Shown piece by piece: positions 59-37,918 of a stretch of DNA of 39,019 bases. The stretch spans positions 1 through 39,019 of the forward strand of contig JADGIZ010000030.1 in NCBI GenBank assembly GCA_027604665.1, in the 5' to 3' direction. The position numbers were made by a program, and so were the translations under genes. The notes beneath the pieces are model-generated. The model made no database searches. It was given only the letters and a program-made list of their open reading frames with translations, and had not been told where the DNA came from. The DNA is from Polyrhizophydium stewartii. Lineage: Eukaryota; Chytridiomycota; Chytridiomycetes; Rhizophydiales. How positions within the stretch are numbered: position 1 is the stretch's first letter; each line of letters opens with the position of its first letter.

Positions 59-3000
59 ATGAACGGCGCCCCCTCGACCGTCTCGCCTTGGTCGGCGCGG
101 CCGCCGCAGACGACCGCCGAGCTGGCAGCGTCGCCGTCGCTCGTCAGCCTGCGCCGGCTATCGACGCCAGACCTCACCACGGAGCACCGGCCCCAGTCGC
201 AGCGCAAGCGGCAGCAGCTGTCACCGCGGCGGCTCGCTGCTGCTGTCGCCGCCGACGCCGCCGACACCAGTCCCAGCGCCCGCGCCATCACCGCGAGCTC
301 CACCATGACCACCACAGCCATCACCGCAGCCCTCGCCCCCGCCGCTGCCGGAGCATCCGCCGCTGCTGCCGCTGTCGCCGCCGACGTCCGTGTCGACACG
401 GCAGCGGCGGCCGAACCCGCCCAAGCGACGCAGCCCGCGGCCGCCGCGGCTGTCAAGGCCCTCCGCGCGGCCGTCGAGCTGCCCGACATCGAGCCCAACC
501 AACGCTGCGTCTCGGTGCTGCGGGGCCACCTGCGCCGGATCCTCTCGGTCCTGCAGGCTGCCCTGGCCGCCGACCCCAGCTGCGGCGGCTGGGAGGACAC
601 CAGCGCAACGTCTGTCGCCGTTGCTGCCACCACCACCTCCACCGCCGCCGCCGCCGCCGAGGGCAGCGCAAGCTGTGGCAGCGGCCGCAGCGGCGACGGC
701 GCAAGCGGCAGCAATGGCTGCGGCAGCGAAGCGTCGAGACGGCCGGCTTCGGCGGCCGCCAGCAACCTGTCCGCCCTCGCCGCCGTCGTCGTTCAGATCC
801 ATCGTTACGTATCGCGCCAGGCAGGCAAGAACCCGATGCGCCAGCTGCTGCAGCACACGGACGCTGCAAGGCGAATGGCCGTGCTCGGGCACCACCTCAC
901 CTGGCTTGCCGAGGTGTGTCTCTGCGCGAGCTGGCTATGCGCCTGCGTCCTGCCGGGCTGCCGTCGTGCTCCAGAGCAGCCTGCCTCGCGGGGGGCGACC
1001 GCTGGATTGTCTGGTGTCCGATGGGCCAGAGTCCAGACCGCTCCTGCTTCGCCCTCTGTCCGGCGCTGCCTCTCGCCAGCTGCTGACTCTCCCGCACGTG
1101 TCGGCTGACCGACTCGACCTGTCGTCGTCGTCGCATCCTCCGTGCTCGCTGTCTCGGTCTCCCGCTCCCACGCCGGCGGGCCTCTCAGGTTCTCAAGCTC
1201 AACGCACACATTGACCCCGCGCAGTTGTCGTTGGCCATCATCCAGGACCAAGAGCAGATCTCGCAGCTGGTGCCTGAGCTGTGCAGCATCGAGGTCGTCA
1301 ATTCTCAGTGAGTTTCATGGCGCTGCAAGCGCACATCAATCACGGTGGGGGGGGGGATGAGTCTGTTTACGCTGACGCTCGACAAGGGTCGTTGAGACCA
1401 TGGCCGACATTGACACAACGCTCACGCTGGGCCTCAGCGCGCTTCCCGGCCCGACGACGGCCATTTTGGAACACTTGATCCGCGTGCGCGGCGAGCTCGC
1501 CAAGCTGGCCGGCCGCGATCTGCTGCCCGTGAAGCTGTGGACCGCCGGCGCGGACGAGATCGAGCCGCACTTTGACGAGCCGCTGGGGATGGGCGGGTTT
1601 GGCCCGCAGTTTGGCGGACTGCTGCGCGGCCGCCGTGTCACGGTCGAGGTCCTCCCGCGCGTCCACAGCAAAGAGGTCCTCGTCACGGCCGCCAAGGAGG
1701 CCGAGGAGTGGTTCGTCCTCTGCCACGAGAACGTTGTCTCGCTGATGGCCTTTTCGGTCAACGCCGATGCGCCCGTGCTGGCGTTGCAGGCGTTCCGGTG
1801 CAGGCTCGATGCCGTCCTGCGCTCCGGCCTGGCCACGGGCTTATCCGTCAACACCAGAATCGGGTTCATCTTTGGCATCGCCAAGGGATTGCGCTACCTG
1901 CACAGCATGCCCAAGCCGCTTGTGCACGGCGACCTGCGCGCGTGCAATGTGACCCTCGGTGCGCGCCGCTGGCCCTGCTTTGCTTGTCCATACCGACTCT
2001 GCGCTGATCGTTGCGCCGCAGGATTCGAAGGCGAGGTCGCCATTGGCAACGTCGGCATGCAGCTCACCAGGGCCTTGTTCAAGCCGGGCGCCGGCCGCCA
2101 GTCGAGCTCGATCCGCTGGGTCGCGCCGGAGCGGTACCGCCGCGGATACAAGCCGGCGCCGCCCATGGACGTGTTCGCCTTTGCCATGACCGCCATCGAG
2201 ATCCTGACGGGCAGCGCGCCGTTCCTGGACGAAGAGCCCGAGGACGAGATCGTCAAGGACTGGATCCGCGATGGCGAGCGGCCCGCGAGGCCGGCGGGCG
2301 TGCCCGACGATCTGTGGCACGTGCTGGTCGAGTGCTGGCACCCGGACCCCGAGCGCCGGCCCACGGCCGCCGACGTCGTGAAGCGGATGTCCCTGCTGCC
2401 CATGGCGTCCATCCGACCCCCGCCTCTGTTCAAGCAGCTCGACGTCATGGTGCCCTCGCACACGTCTATTCCGCTAGAACAGGTGCCGCAGCCAGAGTTG
2501 CCGCCGCTGCCACCGCTGCCGCCGCTGCCGCCTGCGTTTGAGATGGCCTTATCCAGCACGGCGGGCAGCAACAGGAGGCAGCTGGATGCGGAGACGTATC
2601 TGCCCAGAGCCATCCGGGCCGCGCAGTCACCGCCTTCCCCTCAGGCCGTTGCTACTTCCAGCAAAGTCCGTGGACCGCCGGCGCTCTCCCGAGCCATCCG
2701 CACTGCGGCCGCGACCTCCTCTTCGCCGTCGTCATCGGCGGGTGACGCTGATCCGGCCATGTTCCTCGAGACGCCCGCCTCGGCCGCACAATTATCGCAA
2801 CGCCGCCTCTTGCTCCAGCATGCGCAGCCCTCGCCCATGCGCGCCACGTCGGCGCGCAAGCGGCCGCCCTCACCGGCCACCGAGGCGATCCGCTTCATGA
2901 GCATGGATCTGCCGAGCCGCTCCAACGGCCGCGAATCGGCATCTGCGTCTGCCTCTGACGCCGCTGGTTCCACAAGCGCCGCGACGCCGGCAACCGCACG

Positions 3001-6000
3001 CGCTGCTGCATCATCGTCAACGTCGGCCGCTCGCACGCCCAAGTTGGCACCACGATCAGCCAAGCAGCGGCGCATCGAGTACCACCAGATTGCGCCGCTG
3101 CTCGAGTCGGCGGGATCCGAAGGCAGTCTTTCGCTGACGCCCGAGCCTCCGGCGCTGCGGGGCAGTGACATGCACCACCGGCAATGCCAGGACCGCCAGA
3201 GCATCAACGACAGCGGCGACAGCCGAGGCAGCAGCGGCCGCAAGGCCAACGCAATTAATGGCACCAGCGGCGTCAGTAGCAGCAGCAGCAAGGCCAGGAA
3301 GATCAACGGCAGACAGAGCACGTCGAATCTGATCCTGACCCTCGATGCTTGTGCTGCAAAAGCTGCACCTCAAGAAGCTTTGGCCGCTCGAGTTTCCGCA
3401 GCAGCGGATGATGCCCGCACTACTGAGTCGGCTACCGCTGATACTGCCGCTGCCGCTGCCGCCGCTGCCGCGGAACAAGTCGAAGAGGCTGCTGCCTCGG
3501 CATTCACTGCTAGCGTGCAGCGCAAAGCTTCAGCCGGCTCTCGCAGTCGCGGCCATGACCGGAAAGAGTCTGACGCGGAAATGGCCGAAGCCGCCGACTC
3601 GGCTGCTGGAGCCGCTGCAGCCGACGGCGATGGAGATGCGGACGGTGACCGAGATCCGGCTGCTGGTGCTACTGCACAAGCAGATGACGCCGGCCACGGC
3701 GGCGCATCTGGTCATGGGATGGACGGCGCGGACTCTGGCAGCGACGAGCAGCTCACCGACTTGGACATCCTCATGCGCGCGATGCCATTGTGGGCCAAGT
3801 CGGCCAAGCGGCAGCGCGGCAGCATGGGTCCCATGTCGACGGCCGAGTGGCTGCAGATTCGGCCAAGTGACCGGCCCACGGTGGTGCACGACGACGAGAA
3901 CCGGATTCGCATTCTGTAAGTGCCCGAGAAGCGTTCTTTGTGCTGGAGGTCTTTGTGCAGCTCATGGCTGAATCATGCCTTTTTTTTTGGTCGCAGGTAT
4001 TTCCGCAACATGTACGTTGATGGCACGCTTCCGCGCAAGATCCACAGGCTGTCGCATGCCGAGATCATGTGGGTTCGGATGTGTCCTTGACTTGGCGCTG
4101 CGTTTCTCCTCTCTGGATTTCGGCGTGCTGATGATCCGCCGGCGCGCATGCTGCGTCGCAGACTCTACGAGAACAACAGCCGACTTGTTGGATCGATCCC
4201 GCCGACAATCGGGTCGCTGTCCAATCTCACAGTCCTGTGTGTTCTCGCCTAGCTTGGGTTGGAGCGAAACTCAAACAGGGCTGCTGACACAATGGGCGAT
4301 ACGGGGAACTTGTCGTGCCGGCGCATGTGATTGACAGCATCCTGGCCAAGAACGGCCTAGCGGGCGAGATCCCGGCCTCGATTGGGATGCTCTCGAACCT
4401 GACGGAGCTGTGTCTCAACCACAACCAACTCACCGGCAAAATTCCGCGCGAGATTTGCCGCTTGACCAAGCTCGTGACTCTGTGAGCTCGCTCCCTTGCC
4501 TTGCACTTTGTGAGGGACGAGCCTGTGTCTCCCTTTTGGCAGCTGACACCTGGGCGATAGCACGCTCGACTCGAACAAGTTCACTGGCTCGATTCCTACC
4601 GAGATCGGCGCCCTCTCCAACCTAATTTACTTGTATGCACTCGCGATCCTTGTTTGATGCGGCTGGATACATCGCGGCTGCGTGCTGGACAGGAGGGGGC
4701 TATCCGTGTGCTGACCAGATGAGATGCAGGTCCATGCCAGGCAACCAACTGACAGGATCGATTCCCGCCGAGATCGGCAACCTCACCAAGCTTGTCACCC
4801 TGTGCGTTGCAGTCAACCCAACACCACGGTGTCGCGTCCCGCCGCACGCGCTGACGCGCTACTTGCACATCTGCCTCATGGCTTGTATTGCCATGATCAT
4901 GCCTATGTGCATCTGGACCGAATGCAAATGGATGCGGTGCTGCCGGGCGGGGGCGGGCTCGGCATTCACAGGTCGCTCTATCACAACCAGCTTGCAGGAA
5001 GTATTCCCGAGTCGATTGGACGGCTAACTGTGCTCAAGAATCTCTACCTCAACTCAAACCAGCTCACGGGGCCTATTCCGTCGTGCATTGGCTCTCTCAC
5101 CGAGCTGGTTCAGATGTGAGTACTTGCTTGTTTTTCGTGCAGTCTTGCCCTCGCGAGCCTTGCGTTGGCATCACAGTCCGAGAGAGTTGCTTGACCGAGG
5201 CTGATACGCGCTTGGCCTTGCTTGCCTGACATGACACTGGCCGCAGCACAATCGACAACAACTTCCTGTCCGGCCCGCTGCCTGCTGGCTTCCGCGAGCT
5301 CGAGAAAGTCCGGCACTTGTAAGTGTGATTTGGTCTGCCGGTCACTTGACTGCGGCGGTATGGCTGAAGCTGATCTTTCTTGTGCGATGGCCCTTGCGGT
5401 GAACTGCAGCAATATTTCCAATAACCACTTGGAGATCCCGGTCGATCCCGAGCAGCGCAACTTGCCGCCGCAAGTCGCCGGGTGAGAGTGTGGCCAGAGC
5501 GGCGCTGGGTGGCGCATGCGTAACTCCAGCGAGCAAAGCAAAGGCTGACCAGGGTGTGTTATTGCAGAGCGCGCAAGGGCCGCAACATTTTGGCACAGCG
5601 TCGAGTTGCAGCCGAGGCTTCTGAGCCAAAGGCAAACAAGAAGCCGATCGAGAAGCGCGGCAAGGGCGGCAAGAGCGAGAAGCGGGCTGCGGCGCACGCC
5701 GAGCCGAGGCGTACCGTCACGCCCACGGGGACCCGGCGCACTTCGACCCCAACGGATCTGCGGCTCCCTTCTGCGCACGTCGAGCCGCGGCAGCCTTACG
5801 CTCCCACGCACTCCCGGCGCGCCTCAGAGTCCGGACGCGACGCGGACCAGGATGCCGGGGTCCAGGTCCGCCGCCGCAAGGCGCCAGCCGCACAAAGAGC
5901 CGTGTTGGGCGAGGGAGCACGGCTGCTCAGGGACGCGGGCATCCCGCACTTTGACGTCTTCAACCGCCACTCGGACGCCAACGAGGACGAGGACGGTCAG

Positions 6001-6261
6001 GACTGGGTCGAGAGGATCCGCTCGAACGTCTTTGGCGACTACCAGCTCAACTCTGTGGATCAAGGAGCGGACGACGAAGGCGACTTTGATCTGTACGACG
6101 ACTCTGCCGATTACGACAACGACGAACACGACCACATGCGCGGGCATGTGAGCGGCAGGCACGGGCGGACTGCGCGGTCAGCCGGCAGCAGCAGCACCGC
6201 TGGGGTCGCCCGGCGCTGGAGCTCGGCTGACGCCAGGGCCCGTGCGCACTGGGGCCAATGA
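59..6261 (+). CDS. MLKL-like helical domain / pseudokinase / LRR protein, paralog 1
   Basis: Thirteen exons: 59-913, 1189-1307, 1387-1958, 2022-3915, 3997-4068, 4162-4236, 4338-4481, 4561-4632, 4730-4801, 4972-5115, 5247-5318, 5410-5481, 5568-6261; 1618 aa. Residues about 150-345 form a helical domain with the signature RQAxKNPxRQLLQ, which resembles the MLKL-type four-helix bundle. The kinase domain (about 385-660) has a glycine loop GMGGFG (392-397), VTVEV where VAIK should be, HGDLRACN (505-512) for HRDLKxxN, and NVG (525-527) for DFG, so it lacks both the Lys and the DFG Asp. APE and DVFAFA are kept. A long Ser/Ala-rich disordered linker follows, then a short conserved linker domain and ten LRRs (1147-1387) of LxGxIPxxIGxLxxL type, and a basic then acidic tail. 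No signal peptide or membrane segment is visible. The frame is open upstream of the ATG to the window edge, so the N-terminus could be longer. The function, immune or death signalling, is inferred. Confidence 0.85.
390..1450 (+). other. MLKL-like helical N-terminal domain region (paralog 1)
   Basis: Three conserved blocks line up in the three paralogs. The first is a helix with the pattern (D/E)IE(P/T)N around residues 146-150. The second is a long amphipathic helix ending RYVSRQAGKNPMRQLLQ and then a helix ending before the first intron. The third is a separate exon of exactly 119 nt. The second block matches what is known of MLKL-type four-helix bundles, where a helix is followed by (K/R)xPxxxFL and an ELNxRLD-like helix. 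Corresponding regions lie at about 6950-7740 and 12160-12930. The fold assignment is from motif likeness, not a search. Confidence 0.55.
3758..3915 (+). other. Conserved linker domain between kinase and LRRs (paralog 1)
   Basis: About 50 residues just before the first LRR are alignable in the three paralogs although the sequence before them is not. Shared elements are a hydrophobic helix followed by basic residues, then (A/G)xWL, then an acidic/basic stretch ending in (I/T)xx(L/M) at a phase-2 splice site. Counterparts are at about 9594-9757 and 14574-14745, where KYSA precedes the WL motif. It may cap the LRR or act as a hinge. I do not recognise it as a named domain. Confidence 0.5.
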
Positions 6262-6588
6262 AGCACCGCTGCGCCTGAGGCGGGACAGTCGATGGCGCGA
6301 AGCCGCTGGAAGGAGGGAGAGGATGCCGCAATCTCCGCCGCGAGGGGCATCCACAGCTTCCCTTCGATCGCAAAGGCCGCGGCCACCGCGTCCGCCAACG
6401 CCGACGAGCGCGAGTCCCGTGCCCGCCTGCCTCCGCCGCCCGCCGCCTGGCCGCCGCGCCCGCCTGTCCCGCCCGCCCAACGCACGCCGCCCGCCTCGCG
6501 CAGGCGCCGTGCCGCGAACCTCCAACGCCGCTCGAGCGACTCCGGACACATCGCAACCACGCTCTCGTCCGACCCTCGCCCTCCCGCC
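6262..6588 (+). promoter_or_regulatory. Spacer between paralogs 1 and 2
   Basis: About 330 bases between the stop of paralog 1 and the preferred ATG of paralog 2. It is C-rich and open in the coding frame, so part may be coding if translation starts at 6292. It must hold the terminator of the first gene and the promoter of the second. No TATA-like element is evident. Confidence 0.35.
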
Positions 6589-9500
6589 ATGCCGTCGTCC
6601 AGCGCCGTCGCCGTCGAGCACGGCGACAACCCTGACGACGTGCAACCCGCGAACGGCCAGGCACCGCAGCACCCGCCGCGCCCGGGCCAGCAGCCGCTGC
6701 GGTCCGAGCCACACGGCGACTCGCGCGAACCCGCTCATCACGACCTCGGCGACCGCCAGAACCTCCAACCTCAGCAGCAGCAGGTGCCGCCGCCGCCGCC
6801 GCAGCAGCAGCACCTCAACCACCAGAAGCAGCCCCACCAAGCCCATCAAGCCCAGCCGCCCTCGAAGCAGCGCGACGGCCGCGCTGACAAGCCCGCCCCG
6901 CGCGAGAGCCAGCCCAACCGCCAGTCGGGCCAGATGCGGATCCACATCAACGTGGCGATCCGAGCGGCGAATGCGTGCATGTCCAACACCGCCGAGATCG
7001 AGCCAAACCGCCTGGCTGTGGGCCTGCTCCGCATTCGGATCCAGAAGCTCGCCGCCGCGCTGCACGCCCTGCTGTCCGCGCCGGGCATCGACCCGCACAC
7101 GCCGCCCTCTGAGGCGGCCGTCGCCGCCGCCGCCGCCGCGCAGCCGGGCGGCCGCCGGTCGTGGGTCTCGGAGACGGCCAAAGCCGCGGCTGCGTCCGCC
7201 GCCGTGCCGTCGAGCATCGCGCTGCCCGCGCTCGAGGCCTTGGCCGCCTTGCTCGCCCAGATCGCGCGGTTTCTCAAGCGCCAGGCGTCCAAGACCCCGC
7301 TGCGCCAGCTGCTCCAGCACCGCACGGCTGCGGCGCGCGTTGCCATGCTCGATAGCCAGCTCCTGGGGCTCGCGGAGGTGCGTCGAAGCTTGTCTGGGGC
7401 TGCGTGCCCCGATGTCCAAAAAGTTATGGACGCTGACGTGTGCGTTCCTGCCGCAGCCGTTGCTGATTGATCTGATCGTCGTGGACATGAGTATGAGGCC
7501 GTCCATCCAAAGGGATTACGATCTGTTGAGGGACCTGATGCCCTTGATCGCCAAAGCGCACATTGTCCAGACGCAGTAAGCAGCTTGCGTGTTGCCTCGG
7601 CCCCCCAATCTGCCTTGCTGGCGGCTGTTGCAGACGCTGATCGAGAGCCTACCCTGATATGCGCGCGTGCGCCGCAGGCTGGTCGAGACCTTGTATGATA
7701 TTGATGTCGTGATCCAAAACCAAATGGCCGACTTCCCCGTGCACATGCACACCGGGCTTTGGGCTGCCTTGACCAGTGCCCGCAGTGCGCTCGCCACACT
7801 CGCCGGCCGAGATCTGGTTCCGTACAAGGTGTGGTCTGTCAATCCGGATGACGTCGAGATTCTGTTCGACCAGTTGATCGGGCACGGCAGCATCGGCCCG
7901 ATCTACAAGGGGCTGTACAACAACCTCGACGTGGCGATCCAGATGGCTCCCTTTGTTTCCAGCGTCGAGGCAGCGCACACGTTTGCCGCCGAGGCCGAGG
8001 CGTGGTTCTTGCTGCGGCACCCCAACGTGCTTGGGCTGTGGCACTTTTGCGTCAATGTCGACCTGCCGTTCCTGGTGCTGCCGCTGCTGCGGTCGTCCAT
8101 CTCGGCGCACTTGAGGTCGCAGTCCAAGACCGACGTGGCCGTGCGCATGGGATTCATCTTTGGCATCGCCAAGGGCATGCGATACCTCCACGGCCTGCCC
8201 GTGCCCATCGTGCACGGCGACTTGCGCGCGAGCAATGTGCTGCTCGGTGAGCGCTCCCTGCTGTCTCGCCCGCTTGCTCACATCGGTCCGCGCTGACTGG
8301 CACACCGCAGGATACGACGGCGAGGTCGCCATCACGGACGTCGGCATGTCGCTCACCAAGGCGCACTGCAAGCCCTCTCCGGGCCGCCAGTCGAGTTCGA
8401 TCCGCTGGGTCGCGCCGGAGCGGTATCGCCGCGGATACAAGCCGGCGCCGCCGCTGGATGTGTTCGCCTTTGCCATGACGTGCTGGGAGGTGATCACGGG
8501 CCGCGCACCCTTCTTCGAGGAGCCCGAGGACGAGATTGTCAAGGACTGGATCCGCGACGGCGAGCGACCGCCCCGAGTGTCCATCATTCCCGACACCCTG
8601 TGGGAGGTCATGCAGGACTGCTGGCAGCCCGACCCCGAGAAGCGGCCGACCTCGACGCAGATCCTATTCCGCCTCAGCACGACGCCCATCTCGAGGCCGC
8701 TTGTCGTCGACTTTCCATATGTCCAGCCCTTGCAGCGCGCGCTTAACGAGGCGACTGGCAGCAACAACGCCATTGCACACACGGCCGCGGCAATCAAGCA
8801 CAACACTTCGTCAAAGAACAGGGCACTCGCGGCGGCGTTTTCGAAGCGCATGCCGACGTCCATCACTATGGCGTCGCACACGCTGTGCGTTCCGGACACA
8901 TCGGTCTCAAGAACCAAGCTGCTGGCATCAGAGCGAGTCAAGGGCATGACCATCAAGCCGGTTGCGGCGCTCCAGCCGCCGCCAGAGATGGTGCTCGAAA
9001 TCAACCCAGAGGCCACCGCGGCTCTTGCGCCGCGGCTGCCGGCGTCGGTGGTCTCGGCGGCCACCACAGTTTCGAATGTTGGCCGCGGCCCCAACCGCCG
9101 GCCAGATCGCCAAGGCCCTACCAGCAGCGGCTATCACTCGTACGACCGCACCGCGCGCGGACCCCGCGCCGCCCAATACTCGCAAGCCAAGACGGCAGAC
9201 AAGCTGGGCCGCCGCGCCGCAACGGCTCCGTCCAGGCGCAAGACATCCACGCACGTCGAGCCGACCGAGTCTGACAGCATGCCGAGTGATAACGAGCCGC
9301 CGCGCAAGCGCATGTCGCTCCCCGCAGCGTCCAAGCGCTCGCACAACAGTAACGACTTTTTCGATATCTCTGCGGGCACAAGGAGGAGGTCGTCTGCGCT
9401 GGAGCGCCGCGAGCCGAGGGTTGGAGGCAAGTGAACTCGACTTTTTTCATGTGCTCGAGCCGCGCTGACGGTGATGGATCTGACGGCTCCAGGTATGGTT

Positions 9501-11413
9501 TCTGCCGAGGTTGCGACCGCGTCGCCCGCACGCCAGCGCCGCCAGACAGCGTCTTTGGATGCGCCGTCTGCGCGCAAGCGAGCAAGCGACACGGACCGCT
9601 TCCTGTCCATCTTCTCGTCCATCAGCAAGCGCTTGAAGATCCGAAAGGATAACTTTTACAAGTACTCTGCCGTCACGACGCTGGCCGAATGGCTTGCGCA
9701 GGTCCCGTCAAAGCGCTTCCGTATTGGCAAGAACGAAAAGGACAACTTTACTATTATGTGAGTCGTGTTTTTGTTCGCTTGTGTCGTGTCGGTTTGTTTG
9801 CGCGAGATGCTGAAGCAGCCGTGTGTTGCGCTCGTATGACCGGCATAGTCGCCTCGCGGACGGCGACGTCAACGGCGAGATTCCAGAAGGCATTGGCGAA
9901 TTTACTGATCTGGAGTGGTTGTGCGTACCTTGCCGGTTGCCTATTTTGCCGCAAAACGAGTCTGCTCACACCAGTGTCGACGCGCACCGCACGAGGACAC
10001 AGGCAGCTCAGCAACAACACAATGGGCGGGTCGATCCCGCGACAGATCGGAAAGCTCTCGAATCTTCGTGGAATGTATGTTGGGTTGACCAAGCATGAGG
10101 TGTGTCTGCATTGGTTGTTTCGGCGATGGCTGACATGTCGGCAATGCAGACAACTCCACAACCTCGGTCTCACAGGACCCATCCCGAGCGAGATTGGAAA
10201 GCTCACGCAGTTGATGGAATTGTGCGTTTTCTGCGATCTTGCTCCTCAAGACACTTTTGGCTGACTTGCTGCTGGTGCAGGCGCATGTCCAAAAACAAGC
10301 TCACATCCCTGCCGCCCGAGATCGGCAACGTCACTCGCCTCACGTATCTGTACGTTATGCGGTGCCCAGCGTGCTCTGATGTGCAGACGATGCTGACTCG
10401 GCTCGCAGGGAACTGAGCGCCAACCGCATCTCGGGGCTACCGCCGCAGATCTGCAGGCTGACGGAGCTCGTCAAAATGTAATGCTCAAAAGCGGGCGTTG
10501 GTGTGGTTACCCGCCGACGCTCATCGATCTGCTGACGGACGCTTGCCTGAAGTAACCTGAGCCAGAACCCGCTCAACTGCCCGCTTCCAGAGGACATTGG
10601 CGACCTGGTCAGCGTGCGCGAGATGTAAGCTTGACGGTGCCTGCGAATCTGATGGCGCTCTGGCTCTGTGCTCTGCTGACCGGCGATATGCTTGGTATTC
10701 TGTTTTAGCAATATGGCAAGTTGCTCGCTCCAAGGGCCGCTGCCCACGAGCCTCGGCAAGCTGGTCAATCTTCTCAAGCTGTGGGTTGCGCTTCATGTGC
10801 ACACGCAGCCTGCCCGGCCGTGCCTGACAATAGCTTCTGCAGCGACCTGCGCAGCAACTACATCTCTGGCCCGGTGCCCAAGGAGATTGCGGGTTTGATG
10901 GACCTCACGCATCTGTGAGTTTTTTTGTGGACACGGGTGCGATCCGACCACGGCAAAAAGCTGAATGCGTGCGCACGGCCTCGCAGCGACCTGAGCCTCA
11001 ACAACCTCGAGATGCCGCCGCCGCCAGAGTTCCGCGACATGAAGCTGCTCGTCTGCTATCTGAACCAGCGCAAAGTCAAGCCCTCGGAGCTGCGCGGCGA
11101 GGGCGACAAGGCCGCGGAGTCGGAGCCAAAGGCCGATGGCGATGACGATGCGCCACAGGAAGCACAGGGCGGCGAAAGAAGCGATGATGGCGGCGACGAC
11201 GACAAGAGTCATGCCCCGGAGGCTGACGTTGATGCGGACGAGGGCGCGGAGGCGGCGGCGGAAGAAGACCGCGCGGAGAGCGCGGCCGAGGGCGGGCAGG
11301 ATGACGATTCGCCCGTGGTCAGGTCGAGCAGCGCCGACAGCGGCGCCGAGGACGCCGGCGCCGGCGCTGGCTCAGATGCAGCGGCGGAGGCGGCCGACAA
11401 TGCTTTAGATTAG
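6589..11413 (+). CDS. MLKL-like helical domain / pseudokinase / LRR protein, paralog 2
   Basis: Fourteen exons: 6589-7377, 7457-7575, 7678-8246, 8311-9426, 9493-9757, 9849-9920, 10003-10074, 10150-10221, 10281-10349, 10409-10477, 10553-10624, 10709-10780, 10843-10914, 10987-11413; 1284 aa. The N-terminus is Pro/Gln-rich. The helical domain (about 125-320) carries RQASKTPLRQLLQ. The kinase domain has GHGSIG (371-376), VAIQ (388-391, Lys to Gln), HGDLRASN (482-489) and DVG (502-504), so the metal-binding Asp is kept but the ATP Lys is lost. LRRs run from about 953 to 1165; two are 23-residue repeats (exons of 69 nt). The tail is strongly acidic. Exon 4 joins exon 5 through an apparent GC-AG intron, the only join found that keeps the frame. 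An in-frame ATG at 6292 would add 99 aa but lies only 30 bp past the stop of the previous gene, so 6589 is preferred. Confidence 0.83.
8144..8566 (+). repeat. Near-identical kinase tract, copy A
   Basis: This 423-bp segment of paralog 2 matches 13321-13743 in paralog 3 with four mismatches and no indels. It includes the 64-nt intron (8247-8310), which is identical base for base in the two genes. The flanking coding sequence diverges abruptly on both sides. This is expected of gene conversion or recent unequal exchange rather than selection on the protein. Confidence 0.9.
9427..9492 (+). other. Apparent GC-AG intron
   Basis: The donor reads AG|GCAAGT, the textbook GC-type donor, and the acceptor is CCAG with a GCTGAC branch motif upstream. 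A GT donor four bases later (9431) would leave the next exon out of frame. With the GC donor the whole 14-exon coding sequence closes at 3855 nt, divisible by three. Paralogs 1 and 3 have no intron at this place. Confidence 0.6.
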
Positions 11414-11537
11414 AAGAGGGATTTATTAAGGAGCGAGGCGGCCGACTGGCGGCCGACAATGCAGAAGCTGCCGGCGAGGCGGAAGCTGCCGGTGGTTCGG
11501 AAGCCGCCGGCGAGGCAGAGGCGGCTGAGAACCGGCA

Positions 11538-14500
11538 ATGAAAACAGGCAATGTCCCTCCGCTGTGTGTCCGAAGGCGGGGGTTCAAAGCGAGGTTTCCC
11601 GTCGACACGGCCCCCGGCTCGCCCGCCCGATCCGCACGCACCTGCCAGAGCACGGCGCCGCTAGCAGCCACCAGCGGATACACGCCGTCCGCAGCCGCCT
11701 CCCACACGCCCTCGCCCCTTGCGCTCCCGCCCTTGCCTGCACGCGCCGCAGGCCCTCGCACGCTGGGCGCCGTCATCAGCCTCTGCGCCGTCGACAAGCG
11801 CGCCGTGGTCATGGACGCTGCCGGCGGCCCGCCCGCTGTCCCCGCCAAAGCACCCCTGCAGGGCCTCGCCGGCCCAAAGTCTCCTGCCCCAGCCGCCGCC
11901 GCCGCAGAGCCCACTGCCATTGCCCCCATGGACGTCCAGGTCGCCGCGGCCGCCGCGGCCGCCACACCCGCCCCGTCTCCCCCGCGCTCGAGCCTCGTGT
12001 CCGTCCAGGAAACGAGCGTCAGCACCAGCGCCAGAACCAGCAGCGTCCAGGCCGGCACCGACGCCGGCACCGGCGCGTCTACACCGCCCGTGCCAGAAAA
12101 GGCCTCTAGCGAGGCCGTGTCGCTTATCCCGCGCCCCACCATGCAGCAGCGTCTGCCGCAGGCCGTCACCGCGTGCAAGGCCGCCAGAGCCTGCGCCGCG
12201 GCCCTCGTCGACATCGAGACCAACCGGCACGTCGTCACCGTCATGCGCCAGCATGCGGCGGATCTCGCCAACATCCTTGCGAACACGATCTCGAGCCGCT
12301 CGGGGGCCCGCTTTGGCGGACCCGAGGCGCCGCCCAGCGCCGCCGTCGCGACGCTCGAGGCCATCACCTCGGTGCTCGGCCAGGTCCAGCGGTATGTTGT
12401 CCGCCAGGCGGCCAAGAACCCCTTGCGCCAGCTGCTCCAGTACAAGGATGCCTCGGTGCGCATTGCGTCGCTCCACGGCCAGATTGCCGACTATCTCGAG
12501 GTAAGACCCCCGATTTATTCCGGGAGATGACGGCGTTCGGCATCATGTCCCGGTTGCTCCCTTACTCTCATTGTCGCATCTGCCGCGCATCGCGGCAATA
12601 CCCATTCTAGCCCTGTGTTTGCAAAAACTGACGCTTGTACATGATGCCGCGGCCGTCCGGCCCGCAGGCGCTGCAGATCGGCGCGGCGCTGGACAAGGAC
12701 ATGATGCTGCTCGCCATGCGCCACGACCAGGACCAGATCCCGCTGCTCGCGCCGCACGTGTGCAATGCCGACGTCGTGCAGTCGCAGTGAGTGCGCGCGC
12801 CTGCGCCGCCCCCAAGCTGGCTCTGCGGCCGGGCTGACGGCCGGCGCGCCGCAGGTTCGTCGAGACGCTGTCGGACATTGACCTGTCGCTCGAGACGCGG
12901 CTGGCGGACCTGCCCGAGCGCGTGCGCAGCGTCCTGGCGCCGGGGCTGCAGGCCGCCTTTGAGGTCGTCCGTGAGCGCACCGGCCGCAGCGTCGCCCCGA
13001 GCAAGCTGTGGACGCTTGAGCCGAGCGAAATCGACTTTCTGAGCGACCAGCCCATCGGCCACGGCAGTCTTGGCCCCATCTTCCGAGCCCGCCACATGGA
13101 CCGTGACTTTGCCGTCCAGGCCGTGCCGCTTGTCAAGGGACAGAGCCCCGTTGACGTTTTCGCGGCCGAGGTCGAGGCGTGGTTCGTATTGCGGCACCCC
13201 AACGTGCTCGGAGTCTGGCGCGTGTGCATCAATGCCGACGAACCGTACCTTGTCACGCCTTTGATGCTCAAAAGTCTGTCGTCGTATTTGCAGTGCAACG
13301 AGCGTATCGCCATGCCCACCCGCATGGGATTCATCTTTGGCATCGCCAAGGGCATGCGATACCTCCACGGCCTGCCCGTGCCCATCGTGCACGGCGACTT
13401 GCGCGCGAGCAATGTGCTGCTCGGTGAGCGCTCCCTGCTGTCTCGCCCGCTTGCTCACATCGGTCCGCGCTGACTGGCACACCGCAGGATACGACGGCGA
13501 AGTCGCCATCACGGACGTCGGCATGTCGCTCACCAAGGCGCACTGCAAGCCCTCTCCGGGCCGCCAGTCGAGCTCGATCCGCTGGGTCGCGCCGGAGCGG
13601 TATCGCCGCGGATACAAGCCGGCGCCGCCGTTGGATGTGTTCGCCTTTGCCATGACGTGCTGGGAGGTGATCACGGGCCGCGCACCCTTCTTCGAGGAGC
13701 CCGAGGACGAGATTGTCAAGGACTGGATCCGCGATGGCGAGCGGCCCGACCGCCCTGCCGGCGTGCCTGATGTCCTGTGGGACGTCATGCAGGACTGCTG
13801 GCTGCCCGACCCCGAGAAACGGCCAACGTTCATCCAGATCGTGCACAGGCTATCCATCATGCCGACCGCCAAGGGACTGAACGAGCCGGCAACCGTACTC
13901 AAGCATACCCGCTCAGCCAGCCCGACCGATTCGGTATTGCACTTGGATGCCAATGGCGATGGCGATATGAGCTGGGACGAGATGAACTCGAGCTTCACCG
14001 GTGCGCCTGGCTCGGCTCTCGCCGCCCGGTCCGGCAACGACAACATCGCGCAGCATCTACGCCAAGAGCCCAAGCGCTGCCGCCGCGAGAGCCCGCTCCC
14101 GCGCGACTCGGTTGACGAGCCGCCCAACGGCAGGCCTTTGAGCGAAGGATCTGGCTTCGAGAGCCTGCTGCCAGCCAGCGGCAAAAGAGCATCTCGCAGG
14201 AATAGCGCTGCATCTGATGCGCGTGCCTCGGACGCCGACTCGCGGGTCTCGGACGCATCCAGCCTGCCGCTGCCTTCCAGCCGCGTACGCAAGCAAGCAG
14301 GCACCATCTCACTGCTCGAGTCACCAGAGGCCCACCCTTCCAGCTCGCATGAGGCCATCCACCACGAGTCCGAACGCGCCATGCATGTCCCCGACGGCGC
14401 AAGAGGCTCGACGTTGCAAGCTGCATCGGGCTCGGGGTCGTCGGCGCCGCCTCTGGCGCCATCGCCCGACTCGGCCGCCAAGGCGGCCAGAGCTGCGGCA

Positions 14501-16197
14501 ATCAGGGCGTCGGCCGCCATTGTGCCGATGGAGATTGACAACACCGCGCCGCGCTCGCCGCATGAAAACATCGCCGATATCATGCTTTTCCTGCGCCTGT
14601 TCCCGAGTATCAAGCGCCGTTTCCGCATTACAAAGGACAACTGGAACAAGTACTCGGCAACCATGGATGTGGGCGACTGGCTTGCAATCAAGCGTCAGGC
14701 CAAGCCCAAGCTCGCCAACGACGACAAGGGCAGGATCACTGTTTTGTGAGTATGCAATCCAGTTGGTTCAGTGCCGCAGTTGTCGCTGTGTTGCTGACGC
14801 TGCTTTGCAGGAGTCTTACCGATGGGGATATCACCGGTCCGATTCCCGGGGGAATCATGCATCTTGAGGAGCTGCGCGCCGTGTAAGTGCGCGACGCTGC
14901 TGGCACGCAGACGATGTCGAGCCAGAGGCACGCGGCTGACAACATGCTGCCAAGTCACATCCGCAAGAATTCGCTCAACTGCGAGATCCCTCCCGAGCTG
15001 GGCTCCCTGAAGCACCTGATCAGCTTGTATGGCGCAGCTCGCTGTTAGCGTGGTGTCGTCCTAAGCACACCGCCTGCTGACGCTTATCGGGGCAGGAACT
15101 TGTCGGACAACAAGCTGTGGGGCCCCATTCCTCGCGAGTTTGGCAACTTGACGACGATCTCCAAGCTGTGCGCGTCGCCAAGTTCTCTCGCTTGCCCTGT
15201 CTGGCGTGCTGACGGATATTGCATGCAGCGTCCTCGTCAGCAACCGTCTCTCGGGACCGATCCCCCCAGAGCTCGGCCACCTTACAAACCTCACTGAACT
15301 GTGCGTTTGTGTCGCGGCAGAGTCGCACAGCAGCTTATTCGCGTGCGACACTGACTCGCATACTCTCTCGCAGGTCGCTTTCATCAAACCGGTTCACGGG
15401 CGAGATCCCGCGCGAGCTGGGCAACTTGCGAAACCTGACTCATCTGTGCGTGCTCTGCTGCCGTGCACACTCCTCCGGCGGCTGCTTACCAGACACCTGC
15501 GGCAGCTTGCTCTCATCGAACCAGCTGACCGGCTCGATCCCTCCGGAGCTTGGAAACCTGACGAAGCTGAATGTGCTGTAAGTTGGTCAAAGTGCTTGCA
15601 AAAATGCCAGAAAGCTTTGCGACGAGGCTCTGACGAGCGGCCCGGCGCAGGTACCTCAACTCGAACCACTTGATAGGCCCGATTCCGCTGGAGATCTTCC
15701 ACCTCTCACAGCTTGAAGCCATGTATCTCGGCCACAACCGCCTGACCGGCCCCATTCCGCGCTATTTTTCGAACCTCAAACGGCTGACCCATCTGTGCGT
15801 TGACCCTGCTGGGCCTGACCTTACCCCCCTGCCGCTGCTGCTCTTTTCACAGCCGCTGACGCACGAGCCTGTTGCAGCGATGTGAGCGTAAACCACTTTG
15901 ATCTTCCGCTGCCCGACGAGCTTCTGGTGATGCCTCTCAAGCTATTGTGCGTTGCGTGCCCCCGAGATGCCGTCACAGGCTTGTGCATTGTGCTGACATG
16001 CGAATCGCAGTGTGTGGAACCAACGCAAAGTCCGCCGAGAAGGCGAGATCGAAAGCATGGCGTCGACGCCCAACCCGGCCCGCGCGGAAACGCCTGTCCT
16101 GGCTCGTGCAGAGACGCCCGTGCCTGTCCGGGCACGTACACCCATCACTGCCCGCGCCGAGACACCGCCAGCAGGCGCTCACGACATGGAGTTGTGA
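11538..16197 (+). CDS. MLKL-like helical domain / pseudokinase / LRR protein, paralog 3
   Basis: Thirteen exons: 11538-12500, 12668-12786, 12855-13423, 13488-14745, 14811-14882, 14955-15026, 15096-15167, 15229-15300, 15374-15445, 15506-15577, 15651-15794, 15878-15946, 16011-16197; 1246 aa. An in-frame ATG at 11811 would give 1155 aa. The helical domain has RQAAKNPLRQLLQ. The kinase domain has GHGSLG (429-434), FAVQ (446-449, Lys to Gln), HGDLRASN (540-547) and DVG (560-562). A linker with the motif NKYSATMDVGDWL precedes nine LRRs (about 970-1185). The LRRs end in the C-cap NQRKV, which paralog 2 shares. The tail repeats RAETP/RARTP, possible proline-directed phosphosites. Exon 2 is 119 nt, as in both neighbours. 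There is no signal peptide or membrane segment. It is the last of the head-to-tail triplet and shares a near-identical kinase tract with paralog 2. Confidence 0.84.
13321..13743 (+). repeat. Near-identical kinase tract, copy B
   Basis: Partner of 8144-8566, at a constant offset of 5177 bp. It covers the catalytic loop, the intron at 13424-13487, the DVG/activation segment and the C-lobe as far as the DWIRDGER motif. The equivalent intron in paralog 1 (1959-2021) has a different sequence. Confidence 0.9.
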
Positions 16198-16435: not shown

Positions 16436-17320
16436 TCATCCTGCAGTGCTTGTCTGCTTGGTCGAGCTTGGAAGCTCCTGCTTGTCGCTGGTGTCAAACA
16501 GGCTGTCGATTGGCTTGCTTACTCTTGGCGTGCGTATCGACCTGCCCGGCGCAGTCGACGACTTGCGAGGCAAAACGGTTCCGAGCGAAATGGCCTCGCT
16601 CGCAGCCTCGAACGACGGCCTTTCGAACGAGATGCCGTCGCGGAAGAGCTGCATCCCGCTGACGCCGTACGCCGCAAAGAACGGGTAGCAGACGTCGTTG
16701 ACTGCATATTTGATCGGGAGCGAGTCGTCGAGTAGGAAAAATGCGAGGATGCCCAGTGACATGATCGTCAGGGCCGAGGCAATGATGGCCGCGAACCGCC
16801 AGCGCATGCGGTTCGGAATTCGCTTGAAGCGAAAGAGCACCTTGTAGAACATGGTGAGCTGCAGAAAGACGTCAGCAGCGCCGTAGATGCCGCCGAATCC
16901 GACGAGGAAGATGCGGAAGCCGTTCCAGTTGCTGAGCGGGACAAAGTCGTCGAGGTTGCGCAAGGCGTTGAGCGGCGTGAAGATCACGACGAGGAGCTGC
17001 ATGATGCGCACGGTGCGTCCGGACAGCAGTGGCACGTAGTACGTCACGATCTTGACAAACTCGAGCTCGCCGACCATAAAGCTGGTGATTGTGATGGAAT
17101 TGAGGGCATTTGACACGGCGCGGGCAACGAGCGACTGGGGCGTCGGCAGGAGCAGAAAGACGCATACGGCGGGCGTGTGGAAGAGCTCGGTAATGAGGCA
17201 GATGCGCACGGCAACCGAGTAGACGCTGGCCGGCGCAAACAAGAACCTGGCCAGCGCACGCAGCACGAGCAGGTACGCGAACGCAGCGAGGACAAAGAAG
17301 GCGACCAGGACTGAATCCAT
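16436..17320 (-). CDS. Orphan 7-transmembrane protein, paralog A
   Basis: Single exon, 294 aa. The first ATG in frame is at 17320; the frame is open a little further but without another ATG. Hydrophobicity by eye gives seven membrane segments, the first at residues 2-24, followed by a cytosol-like Ser/Thr-rich C-terminal tail of about 65 residues. The third segment contains GELEFVKI, a motif shared with three paralogs at 23952-27212 as (E/Q)LEFLK or EVTFLA. A basic loop before segment six (RIPNRMRWRFA) matches the FRIKYA loop of the others. The 7TM topology suggests a receptor, but I do not recognise a named GPCR family. Confidence 0.8.
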   Translation of the reverse strand: MDSVLVAFFVLAAFAYLLVLRALARFLFAPASVYSVAVRICLITELFHTPAVCVFLLLPTPQSLVARAVSNALNSITITSFMVGELEFVKIVTYYVPLLSGRTVRIMQLLVVIFTPLNALRNLDDFVPLSNWNGFRIFLVGFGGIYGAADVFLQLTMFYKVLFRFKRIPNRMRWRFAAIIASALTIMSLGILAFFLLDDSLPIKYAVNDVCYPFFAAYGVSGMQLFRDGISFERPSFEAASEAISLGTVLPRKSSTAPGRSIRTPRVSKPIDSLFDTSDKQELPSSTKQTSTAG

Positions 17321-17681
17321 ATCGATGGAGAGTTTGGAAAAGATCCAGTCGTCACAAAAATGCGAGCCTGTCACCGTCTGCCGCTGAAAGAACTCCGGAA
17401 GCTACGGGTGGTTCCTGGAGCTCGACGGGGTGTGACGGGTGCGTGGGGCGACGGGTGACGGGCGGTTCTGGGGACGGCAAACGTGCGCATCTGAAGCGTG
17501 TGTTTATCGACAGGGGAAACCCCAAATATAAATCCAACTGTAATCATCATGGCCACGATGCGAGGCCGTCCAGACATGCCGCATGCTGGTCCGAACGGTA
17601 TGCAGCTTTACTACCGCGAGCCAGCACTTGGTGGCTTTGGGCAAGCCCGATCGTGTCTATCGCTCTCCACCGCAAGGGACC
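17321..17681 (-). promoter_or_regulatory. Upstream region of 7TM paralog A with TATA-like site
   Basis: 361 bases between the start of 7TM paralog A and the stop of the MFS gene, both on the - strand. The AT-rich stretch near 17523-17534 reads TTTATATTTGG on the - strand, about 200 bases before the ATG, and could be a TATA-like element. Nothing else is recognisable. Confidence 0.3.
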
Positions 17682-23751: not shown

Positions 23752-23951
23752 TCGCTCATCCGCCCGCATCGCATCCGACCGCATCAGAATGAAGTCGGCG
23801 ATTCTATGCGTCGCGACCTCCGTCGGTCAAAGTTGCACATGTTTCTCCATGCGAAAAGCTGGGATTCGTGTCTGGTAGGAATGCATACGTTTTTTTCATA
23901 GAAACGCTGAAATGCGAGCTTTGCCAGCCCCGCGTTGTCGGCAAAAAGCAA

Positions 23952-24731
23952 ATGACTGTAGACGCTCTTTGGATAACGGAGGCGGTCATTGTCGCGATCA
24001 TGCTCGTTGGCGCAGCCTTCAGCGTCCCGACGCTGCTGCGTCTCAGCAACACGGCTCTCACGATGCTACTTCGCGCGAGCACCGTCTGCGTGATCGTACT
24101 GATGATCGCCCTGCTGCCGTGGTCGTACCCTTATGTCGAACAAGATCCCGTCCGCGAAACAGCCCTGACGGTCGTCATCGATTTCTCCGTGTCGTTCGCA
24201 ATTGCGTTTTTCTGGCTCGCCGAACTCGAGTTCCTCAAGCTCTTTGGCCCGCTGATAGGACTCGTCTCGCGTCGTCTGGTCACGCGGGTCCAGATTGTGG
24301 TTGCCTTTGGCAACGTGCTTCTCGTTGTGGCCCCGATCAAAGATCTGCATGTTCCTGTCATCGACCGTGTCGGCGAGACGTATGCCTTTATTTGGGCTAT
24401 TCTCTTCTGCATTTACGACCTTTGCCAGCAGTCGCTCAATATCTACCTGCTTCTCAGCTTCCTGAAGGACACACCGCTCATGTTTCGCATCAAATACGCC
24501 ATGGTGATGGCCGCCGGCTTGGTGGTCTTTGTCGTTGGAATCTACTTCGAGTCAACCGTCGGAATCGCGCCGTCGCCGCAGCGCGGCTTTTCTTATCTCA
24601 CGGTCTGCGCCTTTATCCTTCTCTCGACAAACGCGATCCTTGTCTTGCGCAGTGTCGTTGCGGAGCGGCAGCGCTCGACACGCATGGCCGTCGACTCTGA
24701 CTCGGCAGGAAAAGTGACCACAGCCGCGTAG
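23952..24731 (+). CDS. Orphan 7-transmembrane protein, paralog B
   Basis: Single exon, 259 aa. The ATG at 23952 is the first in frame and lies just before TM1. Seven hydrophobic segments are seen. TM3 ends in AELEFLKLFG, and the loop before TM6 reads MFRIKYA. A CQQSLNIYLLL segment matches YEVFQQFFLLY of paralog D. The C-terminal tail is short (about 25 aa). Codon use and base composition are slightly less GC-rich than in region 1. Its role is unknown; the topology would fit a receptor or a small carrier. Confidence 0.78.
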   Translation: MTVDALWITEAVIVAIMLVGAAFSVPTLLRLSNTALTMLLRASTVCVIVLMIALLPWSYPYVEQDPVRETALTVVIDFSVSFAIAFFWLAELEFLKLFGPLIGLVSRRLVTRVQIVVAFGNVLLVVAPIKDLHVPVIDRVGETYAFIWAILFCIYDLCQQSLNIYLLLSFLKDTPLMFRIKYAMVMAAGLVVFVVGIYFESTVGIAPSPQRGFSYLTVCAFILLSTNAILVLRSVVAERQRSTRMAVDSDSAGKVTTAA

Positions 24732-24987
24732 GCGGCCTCGAGCTCTTTGGACTGCAGTTCATTCAAAAGAGTCACAGTCTCACTCAAAGATGCCGCCGCA
24801 GCGGAGAAATGAACCAAACGTATCTTGCTCGACTGCGCATTGATCGCCTCGCCATTCGTTGTGTCCTCGGCCTGCGTTTGAATCAAAACGGAGACCAATA
24901 TTGACGACGTGCAGAAAACCCGCTGCAAAATATCAAAGCACTTGTCTCAGTCGGCATTTGTCTTCCAGCTGTCTTGCGCGCTGCCGC

Positions 24988-25866
24988 ATGCAGCCCGCTT
25001 GGGTCGCCGAGGTCGTGATGGCTTTGACACTTCTTGCGCTGCTGGCGCACACCACGCGCCAGATATCGACAATACCGCCGAGCCCGTTTTCCTGGCTGCT
25101 CAGAGTCAGTTGCGCGGCCTCTCTCGCATCGCTCGTGATCACACCCATCTGGACGTTTCCCGATACCAAAAGACATGCGCACCACGATACGGCGCTCACG
25201 ATCGCAAGCAGTTTCGTTTCCAACGCCCTTGTTGCCCTCTTCTCCATGAGCCAGCTCGAGTTTCTCAAGATCATCGGCTCTCTTTTTGCGTCCGTCGGAG
25301 CGCGCGCTGTCCTCGCGACGCAGATCATATTCACTGCAGTCCACCTTGTGTACTTGTCGACGAGTTTCTCACCGCTAATCGGCCACTATTGGAGCTCTCT
25401 GGGAGAGAAGTTTTCGTCCACATGGACCGTCACGCTGGGTGTATTGGATCTGCTGCTGCAGTGCTGGGTGCTCTACTTTGTGCTCTGGCGCATGCCCTCC
25501 GAGACTGCCCATTTTCGTCGTCAGTATTCTGCGATTGTGGCGGCTGGCGTCGGATTTCTGCTGGCAGGCGCGACGCTCGAGCAGTTTTACTCGAGTGGGA
25601 GCTCGCCTGAGCGTGGGTGCGTGCTCCTATGTGTTGTCGGCTTTGCATTGCTATCGATCCGATCGATGCAGATCCTGCGCTCGGCCTTGACAGCTGGCCG
25701 GTACCAGAGCTCGGAGCTGGGCAACGAAGCCTCTCGTGTATCGAATCCTGCTCCCCGCCGCGTCCTTGATCTGCTGGGAAAGAAAGCGCCGAACGTGAGC
25801 CGCGATGATTCGAGCACAGTTCAGGGGTGCTCAACAACCGAGCCCGGGACTCCGTCGAGCAGATAG
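24988..25866 (+). CDS. Orphan 7-transmembrane protein, paralog C
   Basis: Single exon, 292 aa, starting at the first in-frame ATG. Seven membrane segments. TM3 carries SQLEFLKIIG and the TM5-TM6 loop HFRRQYS, which align with the other members. The C-terminal tail of about 60 residues is Ser/Arg-rich and could be phosphorylated. It lies 256 bp after paralog B on the same strand, which fits tandem duplication with strong divergence. Confidence 0.77.
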   Translation: MQPAWVAEVVMALTLLALLAHTTRQISTIPPSPFSWLLRVSCAASLASLVITPIWTFPDTKRHAHHDTALTIASSFVSNALVALFSMSQLEFLKIIGSLFASVGARAVLATQIIFTAVHLVYLSTSFSPLIGHYWSSLGEKFSSTWTVTLGVLDLLLQCWVLYFVLWRMPSETAHFRRQYSAIVAAGVGFLLAGATLEQFYSSGSSPERGCVLLCVVGFALLSIRSMQILRSALTAGRYQSSELGNEASRVSNPAPRRVLDLLGKKAPNVSRDDSSTVQGCSTTEPGTPSSR

Positions 25867-26231
25867 AGGAAGCAGCTGCCGGTTGAATGAAGTGCGCAGC
25901 CTGCGAGACCATGGCAATACTCGCAAAGGCTCGCCTGTATTTTGCCGGCAGAAGCTGCAGATCTTATCATTGGCGTGACCAAATGACTTTTCAGCAGCTT
26001 CGGAGTCTTAGGTCAAAGGCGTCTTCCAATTGCGAACGGCTACTTTCTCCCGACCAAACAGCTCGAGCCCGATACGCAACTCGCACAGATTGCGAACCAA
26101 CGCCAGGCGGGCCGCGCGCAACCATCTCCAAGGAGCCCAACGAGCCGATAGCCGCAGCAGCCCGCGAGCACGCAAGCGCTTGCCAAGACCTCGCACGCCA
26201 TCTCGACCGACGGAGCGAGTACTCGCACCAA
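25867..26231 (+). promoter_or_regulatory. Spacer upstream of 7TM paralog D
   Basis: 365 bases between paralogs C and D. The frame of paralog D is open across most of it, but the translation is low-complexity and without membrane segments. It more likely holds the promoter and 5' leader. Confidence 0.35.
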
Positions 26232-28936: not shown

Positions 28937-29062
28937 ACGTGTGGTGTGCTGCTGCTACGGGGGCGTGCGGGAGAGGGGTTGGTGCGTGCGTTGCAGACGT
29001 CTGAGAGTCGCTCCAGGCGTGGGCGCAGAGGCGGAGGTGCAGCGCCAGGCGGAGGTGGGTGA
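28563..29062 (-). repeat. Duplicated 5' unit, copy A
   Basis: The first 374 bases (28563-28936) align gap-free with 31665-32038 at offset 3102, with about ten differences. The match continues upstream of the ATG with small indels to about 29062, so the promoter region is duplicated too. Homology stops abruptly inside the coiled-coil start (after MVASR). Confidence 0.85.
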
Positions 29063-32038: not shown

Positions 32039-32170
32039 GCGTGTGGTGTGCTGCTGCAGCGGGGGCGTGCGTGGGGGGGGAGGTGCGTGCGTGCGTTGCA
32101 GACGTCTGACAGTCGCTCCAGGCGTGGGCGCAGCAGAGGCGGAGGTGCAGCGCCAGGCGGAGGTGGATGA
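31665..32170 (-). repeat. Duplicated 5' unit, copy B
   Basis: Partner of 28563-29062, covering the first 125 codons and the proximal promoter of zinc-module paralog 2. The GACGTCTGA element and a CAGCGCCAGGCGGAGGTG block are kept in both upstream regions. Confidence 0.85.

Positions 32171-37840: not shown

Positions 37841-37918
<78 letters not shown>

Follow-up and report, generated by a model that had tools for sequence, protein, structure and literature searches.

Three tandem genes of a chytrid fungus predicted to join an MLKL-type helical bundle, a TKL pseudokinase domain and leucine-rich repeats

We have analyzed a stretch of 39,019 nucleotides from the chytrid Polyrhizophydium stewartii (contig JADGIZ010000030.1, here C30; the whole stretch is called the window), within a genome searched as 690 contigs of 12.86 Mb. 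It contains three tandem, intron-rich genes on the forward strand, termed gene 1, gene 2 and gene 3 (g1, g2 and g3), which were spliced by hand from the DNA letters alone. The predicted models have 13, 14 and 13 exons (12, 13 and 12 introns) and encode proteins of 1618, 1284 and 1155 amino acids (aa), with no internal stops. The introns are GT-AG throughout, apart from one GC-AG intron in g2. A bacterial origin or contamination was rejected on account of this richness in introns. In each protein a helical bundle is followed by a helical brace, a TKL kinase domain, a disordered linker and a region of leucine-rich repeats (LRRs), as set out in Table 1.

Table 1. Positions in the window of the three genes, their domains and the near-identical tract of g2 and g3
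Feature	Position	Strand	Remark
g1: MLKL-like bundle, TKL pseudokinase, linker, 10 LRRs, charged tail	59..6261	+	spliced model
g1 four-helix-bundle region, 3′ part of exon 1	431..913	+	profile search
g1 brace region	1189..1570	+	exon 2 (1189-1307) plus 5′ part of exon 3 (from 1387)
g1 pseudokinase	1571..2386	+	Lys to Glu, DFG to NVG; interrupted by intron 1959-2021
g1 LRR exons	3997..5481	+	
g2	6589..11413	+	14 exons, 1284 aa; start uncertain (ATG also at 6934)
g2 four-helix-bundle region	6934..7377	+	
g2 brace region	7457..7864	+	exon 2 (7457-7575) plus 5′ part of exon 3 (from 7678)
g2 pseudokinase	7865..8669	+	Lys to Gln, DVG; interrupted by intron 8247-8310
g2 LRR exons	9849..11050	+	end approximate
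g3	11811..16197	+	13 exons, 1155 aa; start uncertain (ATG also at 12141)
g3 four-helix bundle	12141..12500	+	AlphaFold2 pLDDT (predicted local distance difference test) 87.4
g3 brace	12668..13041	+	exon 2 (12668-12786) plus 5′ part of exon 3 (from 12855); full-length model shows three helices
g3 pseudokinase	13045..13852	+	Lys to Gln, DVG; interrupted by intron 13424-13487
g3 LRR exons	14811..15946	+	9 repeats
g2 copy of near-identical g2/g3 tract	8144..8559	+	intron included; first 180 bases exact
g3 copy of near-identical g2/g3 tract	13321..13736	+	

The exon organization is common to the three genes. Exon 1 carries the helical bundle, every exon 2 has 119 nucleotides (nt), and exon 3 ends at an intron lying 3′ of the catalytic loop. 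The LRR exons, the last one excepted, are 69, 72, 75 or 144 nt in length and in a single phase, most repeats occupying an exon of their own. The starts of g2 and g3 are uncertain, each having a second in-frame ATG right at helix 1 of the bundle. No such ATG precedes helix 1 in g1, the modeled start of which lies only 58 bases from the end of the contig. The public annotation divides the region differently, model P0002 (HK105_004521) fusing g1 with the front of g2, and P0001 (HK105_004522) fusing the LRR end of g2 with g3. However, the exon layout of the trio recurs at an unlinked locus on contig C575, where our 1015-aa model contains the public model P0122 (994 aa) letter for letter. The identical layout and the agreement with P0122 make it very unlikely that the domains belong to separate genes. 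The same order and exon phase in the predicted paralogs likewise uphold the proposal, made in an earlier reading from the sequence only, that they lie within single genes.

No direct match of the N-terminal domains of g1-g3 to the Pfam family MLKL_N (PF22215) was found at E ≤ 1, nor of P0001, P0004, P0005 and P0012 at E ≤ 0.5. Pfam HeLo and HeLo-like domains also gave no match to g1-g3 at E ≤ 1. MLKL_N was matched by one of 11 rows scanned (E 0.075) and PF17111 by one of 22 other exon-1 rows (E 0.026), neither row being one of g1-g3. When profiles of the family were compared directly with the PDB, neither A1 (11 sequences) nor A3 (25 exon-1 rows) reached MLKL, the best rows for A3 being mainly designed helical proteins.

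The homology with the MLKL bundle emerges in two steps, from the trio to chytrid proteins that match MLKL_N, and from these to MLKL in the PDB. A homolog search was made with seven aligned family members as the query; among the 120 of 349 matches listed, four carry the PF22215 label. These are P0130 and P0132 from P. stewartii, P0133 from Batrachochytrium dendrobatidis and P0136 from Homolaphlyctis, and on fresh scanning all lie above the cut-off, at 30.7, 32.0, 28.8 and 28.0 bits, respectively. P0130 and P0133 also have kinase and LRR domains, and P0132 additionally matches RPW8 at 18.9 bits, below the cut-off. A held-out profile (A5) was built solely from these four proteins, with no window sequence in its training. 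Compared with the PDB, its top seven rows are all MLKL, over positions 20-142, with E = 6e-7 for six of them and 2e-4 for mouse MLKL (4btf). Applied to the trio, the held-out profile scored 67, 70 and 86 bits on the whole proteins of g1, g2 and g3, and 72.8, 70.7 and 88.7 bits on the helical domain, where 3000 shuffles gave at most 9.0. Trimmed to the MLKL part, it still scored 36, 30 and 47 bits (shuffles ≤ 9.5). An alignment of the pseudokinase branch described below (A4), compared with the four proteins by hhalign, gave a probability of 99.7 and E = 9e-26.

The AlphaFold2 model of the g3 bundle has four helices and, separating the third from the fourth, a further short helix; excerpts of PMC9815663 describe such a helix as common to MLKL and HeLo-like domains. 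Mouse MLKL fits on this model at 2.1 Å over 92 residues. A Foldseek search with the bundle gave a best E of 1.9 and MLKL at rank 21 (E 6.9); VIA-align is a re-examination of Foldseek's own list. The rows shown for the full-length model against the PDB are kinases and LRR proteins, and add nothing further on the bundle. From the profiles and the model we conclude that the N-terminal domain of g1-g3 is a predicted MLKL-type four-helix bundle. The MLKL-type domain of the sequence-only reading is thus borne out by held-out profile, PDB matches and AlphaFold2 model, and the fold test that it had proposed returned a four-helix bundle rather than an unrelated fold. A RHIM-like motif ([IV]Q[ILV]G) was not found in g1-g3 and five relatives.

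In the genome of P. stewartii, PF22215 matched seven places, none of them inside the window. The best, on contig C623 (27.3 bits), is the sole one above the cut-off, and the next five (20.9-24.5 bits) lie on contigs with TKL kinase matches nearby. A search with the g3 N-terminal domain extended to C575 (E = 7e-4) and C297 (E = 3e-3), and a homolog search with the C575 domain matched solely its own public model.

The kinase domain (PF07714) is present in all three proteins. Its motifs were compared across 15 aligned kinase domains, among which the VAIK lysine is retained by all eight kinase-intact members. It is replaced by glutamate in g1, and by glutamine in g2, g3, B. dendrobatidis P0004, Batrachochytrium salamandrivorans P0005 and P. 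stewartii P0012, i.e., in five of the six members of a pseudokinase branch. The DFG site reads DVG in g2, g3, P0004 and P0005, NVG in g1 and HFA in P0012. The catalytic-loop aspartate is kept in five of the six, P0005 having HGN. Thus g1-g3 all keep the HGD aspartate, and the DFG aspartate is kept in g2 and g3 but lost in g1. The activation loop of the trio has a run of Ser/Thr residues ahead of its APE region. In a tree of 31 kinases these six group together with support of 92/83, which is short of the tree program's starred level, and the five other than P0012, which is a long row, have 94/76. Their neighbors are kinase-intact members from Batrachochytrium and Homolaphlyctis (83/64). In Entophlyctis P0010 the lysine is still present but the catalytic loop reads HGN, and catalysis has apparently been lost independently; counting P0010, the pseudokinase label takes two changes on the tree.

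These comparisons indicate that the trio is part of a pseudokinase branch with further members in Batrachochytrium. The pseudokinase form looks old and kept, since a glutamine common to several genera favors a maintained pseudokinase over a decaying one. The spliced models, PF07714 and the alignment agree with the earlier description of three tandem paralogs with a helical N-terminal domain, a lysine-less TKL kinase and nine or ten LRRs. The term pseudokinase holds for the trio, which has lost the VAIK lysine, but not as a rule, as most relatives of the same architecture look kinase-intact.

Helix 1, presumably the membrane helix, was scored by its best 15 residues. Thirteen of 15 kinase-intact rows score at least 1.45, nine of these lying between 1.7 and 2.3, and in the thirteen the helix begins at residue 2-15. 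The exceptions are P0131 (0.36) and P0135 (0.79). The scores for g1, g2 and g3 are 1.23, 0.92 and 1.38, and in the models the helix begins at residue 113-122; among the pseudokinase relatives P0012 scores 0.11 and P0004 -0.85, the helix not being recognizable in the latter. By hydropathy alone, a crude test, the highest 19-residue Kyte-Doolittle means are 1.61, 1.71 and 1.15 for g1, g2 and g3, in keeping with the earlier statement that there is no membrane segment. The products are probably soluble, and a membrane receptor was rejected because no strongly hydrophobic segment is present. By visual count of the exons, there are ten LRRs in g1 and nine each in g2 and g3; they are of plant type.

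To place the trio among its relatives, we scanned 43 proteins (P0001-P0012 and P0122-P0152) with the held-out profile. It matched 28 at E < 1e-10, including the four from which it was made; P0005, P0009, P0127, P0137 and P0138 are partial matches only. Kinase and LRR labels are also present on 24 of these 28, a number that includes the window's own P0001 and P0002 and some repeat annotations. The species represented are P. stewartii, B. dendrobatidis, B. salamandrivorans and Entophlyctis helioformis. In the genome of P. stewartii, 20 stretches chosen for kinase or MLKL_N matches were scanned with a profile trained on family members, window sequences included, and 16 of them contain the N-terminal domain. 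There is a chytrid family in which an MLKL-type bundle, brace, TKL kinase domain, disordered linker and plant-type LRRs are joined in one protein, and the trio shares its bundle, TKL kinase domain, LRRs and common intron layout. What is new is that, judged by their motifs, this family also holds members with intact kinases, P. stewartii P0122 and P0132 among them.

Several outlying groups were also observed. Five stretches of the genome (L047-L051, on C253, C135, C409, C57 and C161) form a second subfamily closer to MLKL_N; the kinase looks degenerate in the two that were read (C253 and C409), and an LRR motif is found in four of the five. Boothiomyces P0140/P0141 and Polychytrium P0152 are related TKL kinases with SH3 or Sel1 repeats in place of LRRs, and their N-terminal match to the held-out profile is not significant. 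P0003, P0009, P0130, P0132 and P0138 are publicly named as a U1 snRNP protein despite their TKL kinase domains, and some of them also carry MLKL_N or LRRs.

What might be the function of these proteins? The explanation that we favor overall, at a little less than an even chance, is that the trio proteins act chiefly as partners of the kinase-type members, in sensing or regulation, and are not self-contained executioners. We suggest a partner role because the lysine is missing from the trio and its helix 1 is comparatively weak, whereas family members of this species or of sister species retain that lysine and, for the most part, have a helix 1 of greater hydrophobicity. The LRR horseshoe would bind a ligand or partner, and the kinase or pseudokinase domain would act as a conformational switch that restrains the bundle via the brace. 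Activation would release the bundle, which would then assemble. The trio proteins would pair with kinase-type members through the bundle or the kinase domain, the kinase-type members performing phosphorylation and membrane attack. Such a pairing would resemble that of the kinase RIPK3 with the pseudokinase MLKL, or a sensor/helper pair. Weighing against it, the gap in helix 1 score between g3 and the kinase-intact members is narrow. For the trio itself, a role in death or immunity is something that we infer.

It is unlikely, though well worth considering, that the proteins have nothing to do with death, being cytosolic LRR kinases or pseudokinases with a sensing role for nutrients, substrates or development, in which the bundle serves for oligomerization only. 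The death role of the family is drawn by analogy, and in this zoosporic fungus the family has radiated widely, going by the preselected stretches above. The replacement of LRRs by SH3 or Sel1 in relatives from other chytrids would also fit, bearing in mind their non-significant N-terminal match. However, those MLKL, HeLo and RPW8 relatives that have a known function act in death, according to excerpts of PMC12881547 and PMC10951266, and P0132 matches both MLKL_N and, more weakly, RPW8.

The sequence-only reading saw each protein as a complete sensor and executioner, in which the LRRs free the bundle via the pseudokinase and the bundle permeabilizes membranes with no partner. We consider this improbable. 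Helix 1 is weaker in g1-g3 and unrecognizable in P0004, and the modeled starts leave around 110 or more residues ahead of it, all of which weakens the executioner role. Nevertheless, all the parts are in one polypeptide and the bundle fold is near that of MLKL. Moreover, the alternative ATGs of g2 and g3 could put helix 1 at the N terminus, which is not so for g1, and in g3 the hydrophobicity of helix 1 falls only slightly short of that in some kinase-intact members.

It is very improbable that the genes are decaying duplicates from which drift has removed catalysis and part of helix 1, with no conserved function. The ratio of nonsynonymous to synonymous substitution (dN/dS) by counting is around 0.57 to 0.65 among g1-g3 (dN 0.36-0.54, dS 0.61-0.95), and g1 has lost both lysine and DFG aspartate, as decay would allow. 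Against this, frames and splice sites are all intact across 13-14 exons, and the glutamine and DVG found also in Batrachochytrium suggest a state older than the split of the genera. That helical domain, kinase and LRRs come from different genes is scarcely credible, for although the models rest on genomic sequence and the public boundaries differ, domain order and exon phase are the same in three paralogs and at C575, and the order recurs in proteins of B. dendrobatidis, B. salamandrivorans and E. helioformis.

Returning to the partner role that we favor, a wider proposal is that chytrids possess a class of non-NLR intracellular immune receptor, in which a single chain combines LRRs as sensor, a kinase or pseudokinase as switch and an MLKL-type bundle for the membrane, with kinase and pseudokinase members working in pairs. 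We put this forward tentatively, as a possibility with the odds against it. If true, parts resembling RIPK3-MLKL necroptosis and sensor-helper pairs would be found in a kingdom reported to be without LRR pattern-recognition receptors, and early-diverging fungi would gain an LRR-based intracellular recognition system. MLKL-type bundles are known in animals, plants and other fungi; here they are coupled to LRRs via a kinase or pseudokinase, so that sensing and execution could share one chain with no nucleotide switch. Kinase-type and pseudokinase-type relatives in one species would then allow the evolution of the switch to be studied. At a minimum, chytrid genomes contain MLKL homologs.

The near-identical tract shared by g2 and g3 is 39-40/40 identical in each block from 8160, including its 64-base intron, while the flanks ahead of it are mostly near 60% identity. 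On the sequences this looks like recent gene conversion, and an assembly error may also account for it. Elsewhere in the window, four related proteins with five or six hydrophobic segments each, encoded at 16439-17401 (-) and at 23793-24728, 24844-25863 and 25887-27209 (+), have no Pfam match at E ≤ 0.01. Reading frames for a major facilitator superfamily (MFS) transporter (PF07690; 17685-20078) and an alginate lyase (PF05426; 19912-20790) lie on the reverse strand, as do three tandem genes, at 27482-28954, 29285-32272 and 36964-39018, whose related products have Gln-rich or Ser/Arg-rich parts and match nothing in Pfam. The products of the first two of these tandem genes are 72% identical over 208 residues; that of 32464-36045 is similar in composition to these neighbors but gave no blastp match.

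Comparison with known systems begins with animal MLKL, with which the trio shares a homologous bundle (by the two-step profile), a similar fold, a helical brace and a kinase-fold domain lacking catalytic residues. The pseudokinase of animal MLKL keeps the lysine and has lost the catalytic aspartate. The trio differs in having lost the lysine and not the aspartates, and in its C-terminal LRR region, weaker helix 1 and kinase-intact relatives. Plant AtMLKL and wheat Pm13 similarly combine MLKL_NTD, brace and kinase. Excerpts of PMC10951266 describe the Pm13 brace as three helices, as in the g3 full-length model, place its kinase in a plant receptor-kinase subfamily, and mention no LRR for these proteins, unlike the trio.

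An N-terminal MLKL-type bundle is also shared with fungal HeLo/HELL proteins and the MLKL_NTD NLRs of basidiomycetes (PMC9815663, in excerpt), and HELL fused to a kinase or pseudokinase in fungi is mentioned in excerpts of a 2025 review (PMC12881547). The fungal NLR types use a nucleotide-binding switch, unlike the trio, and the parts seen of these two papers mention neither an LRR with a kinase nor a chytrid case. A survey of early-diverging fungi reports MLKL homologs in Glomeromycotina only (PMC8778642, in excerpt). The architecture was one that the earlier reading did not know to be described. Among the matches listed in our literature searches, seen in part, MLKL domain, kinase and LRR are not described together; however, Soanes and Talbot (2010; PMC2939053) had listed four B. 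dendrobatidis LRR and kinase genes with no membrane segment. These are perhaps of the same family as the trio. The available excerpt argues against LRR receptors in fungi and mentions neither helical domain nor pseudokinase for its genes, and none of the papers seen reports the MLKL domain of such proteins.

The trio resembles the plant LRR receptor kinases MIK2 and FLS2 in LRR type and fold, but differs in having no membrane segment by hydropathy, LRRs placed after the kinase and an N-terminal bundle. The label NLR-like is best taken as an analogy only. Neither NB-ARC nor NACHT was found for the window exons at E ≤ 1 or for P0001 at E ≤ 0.5, and in place of the NB-ARC of the plant CNL and RNL immune receptors there is a kinase domain in the middle of the protein; what the trio has in common with NLR receptors is the C-terminal LRRs.

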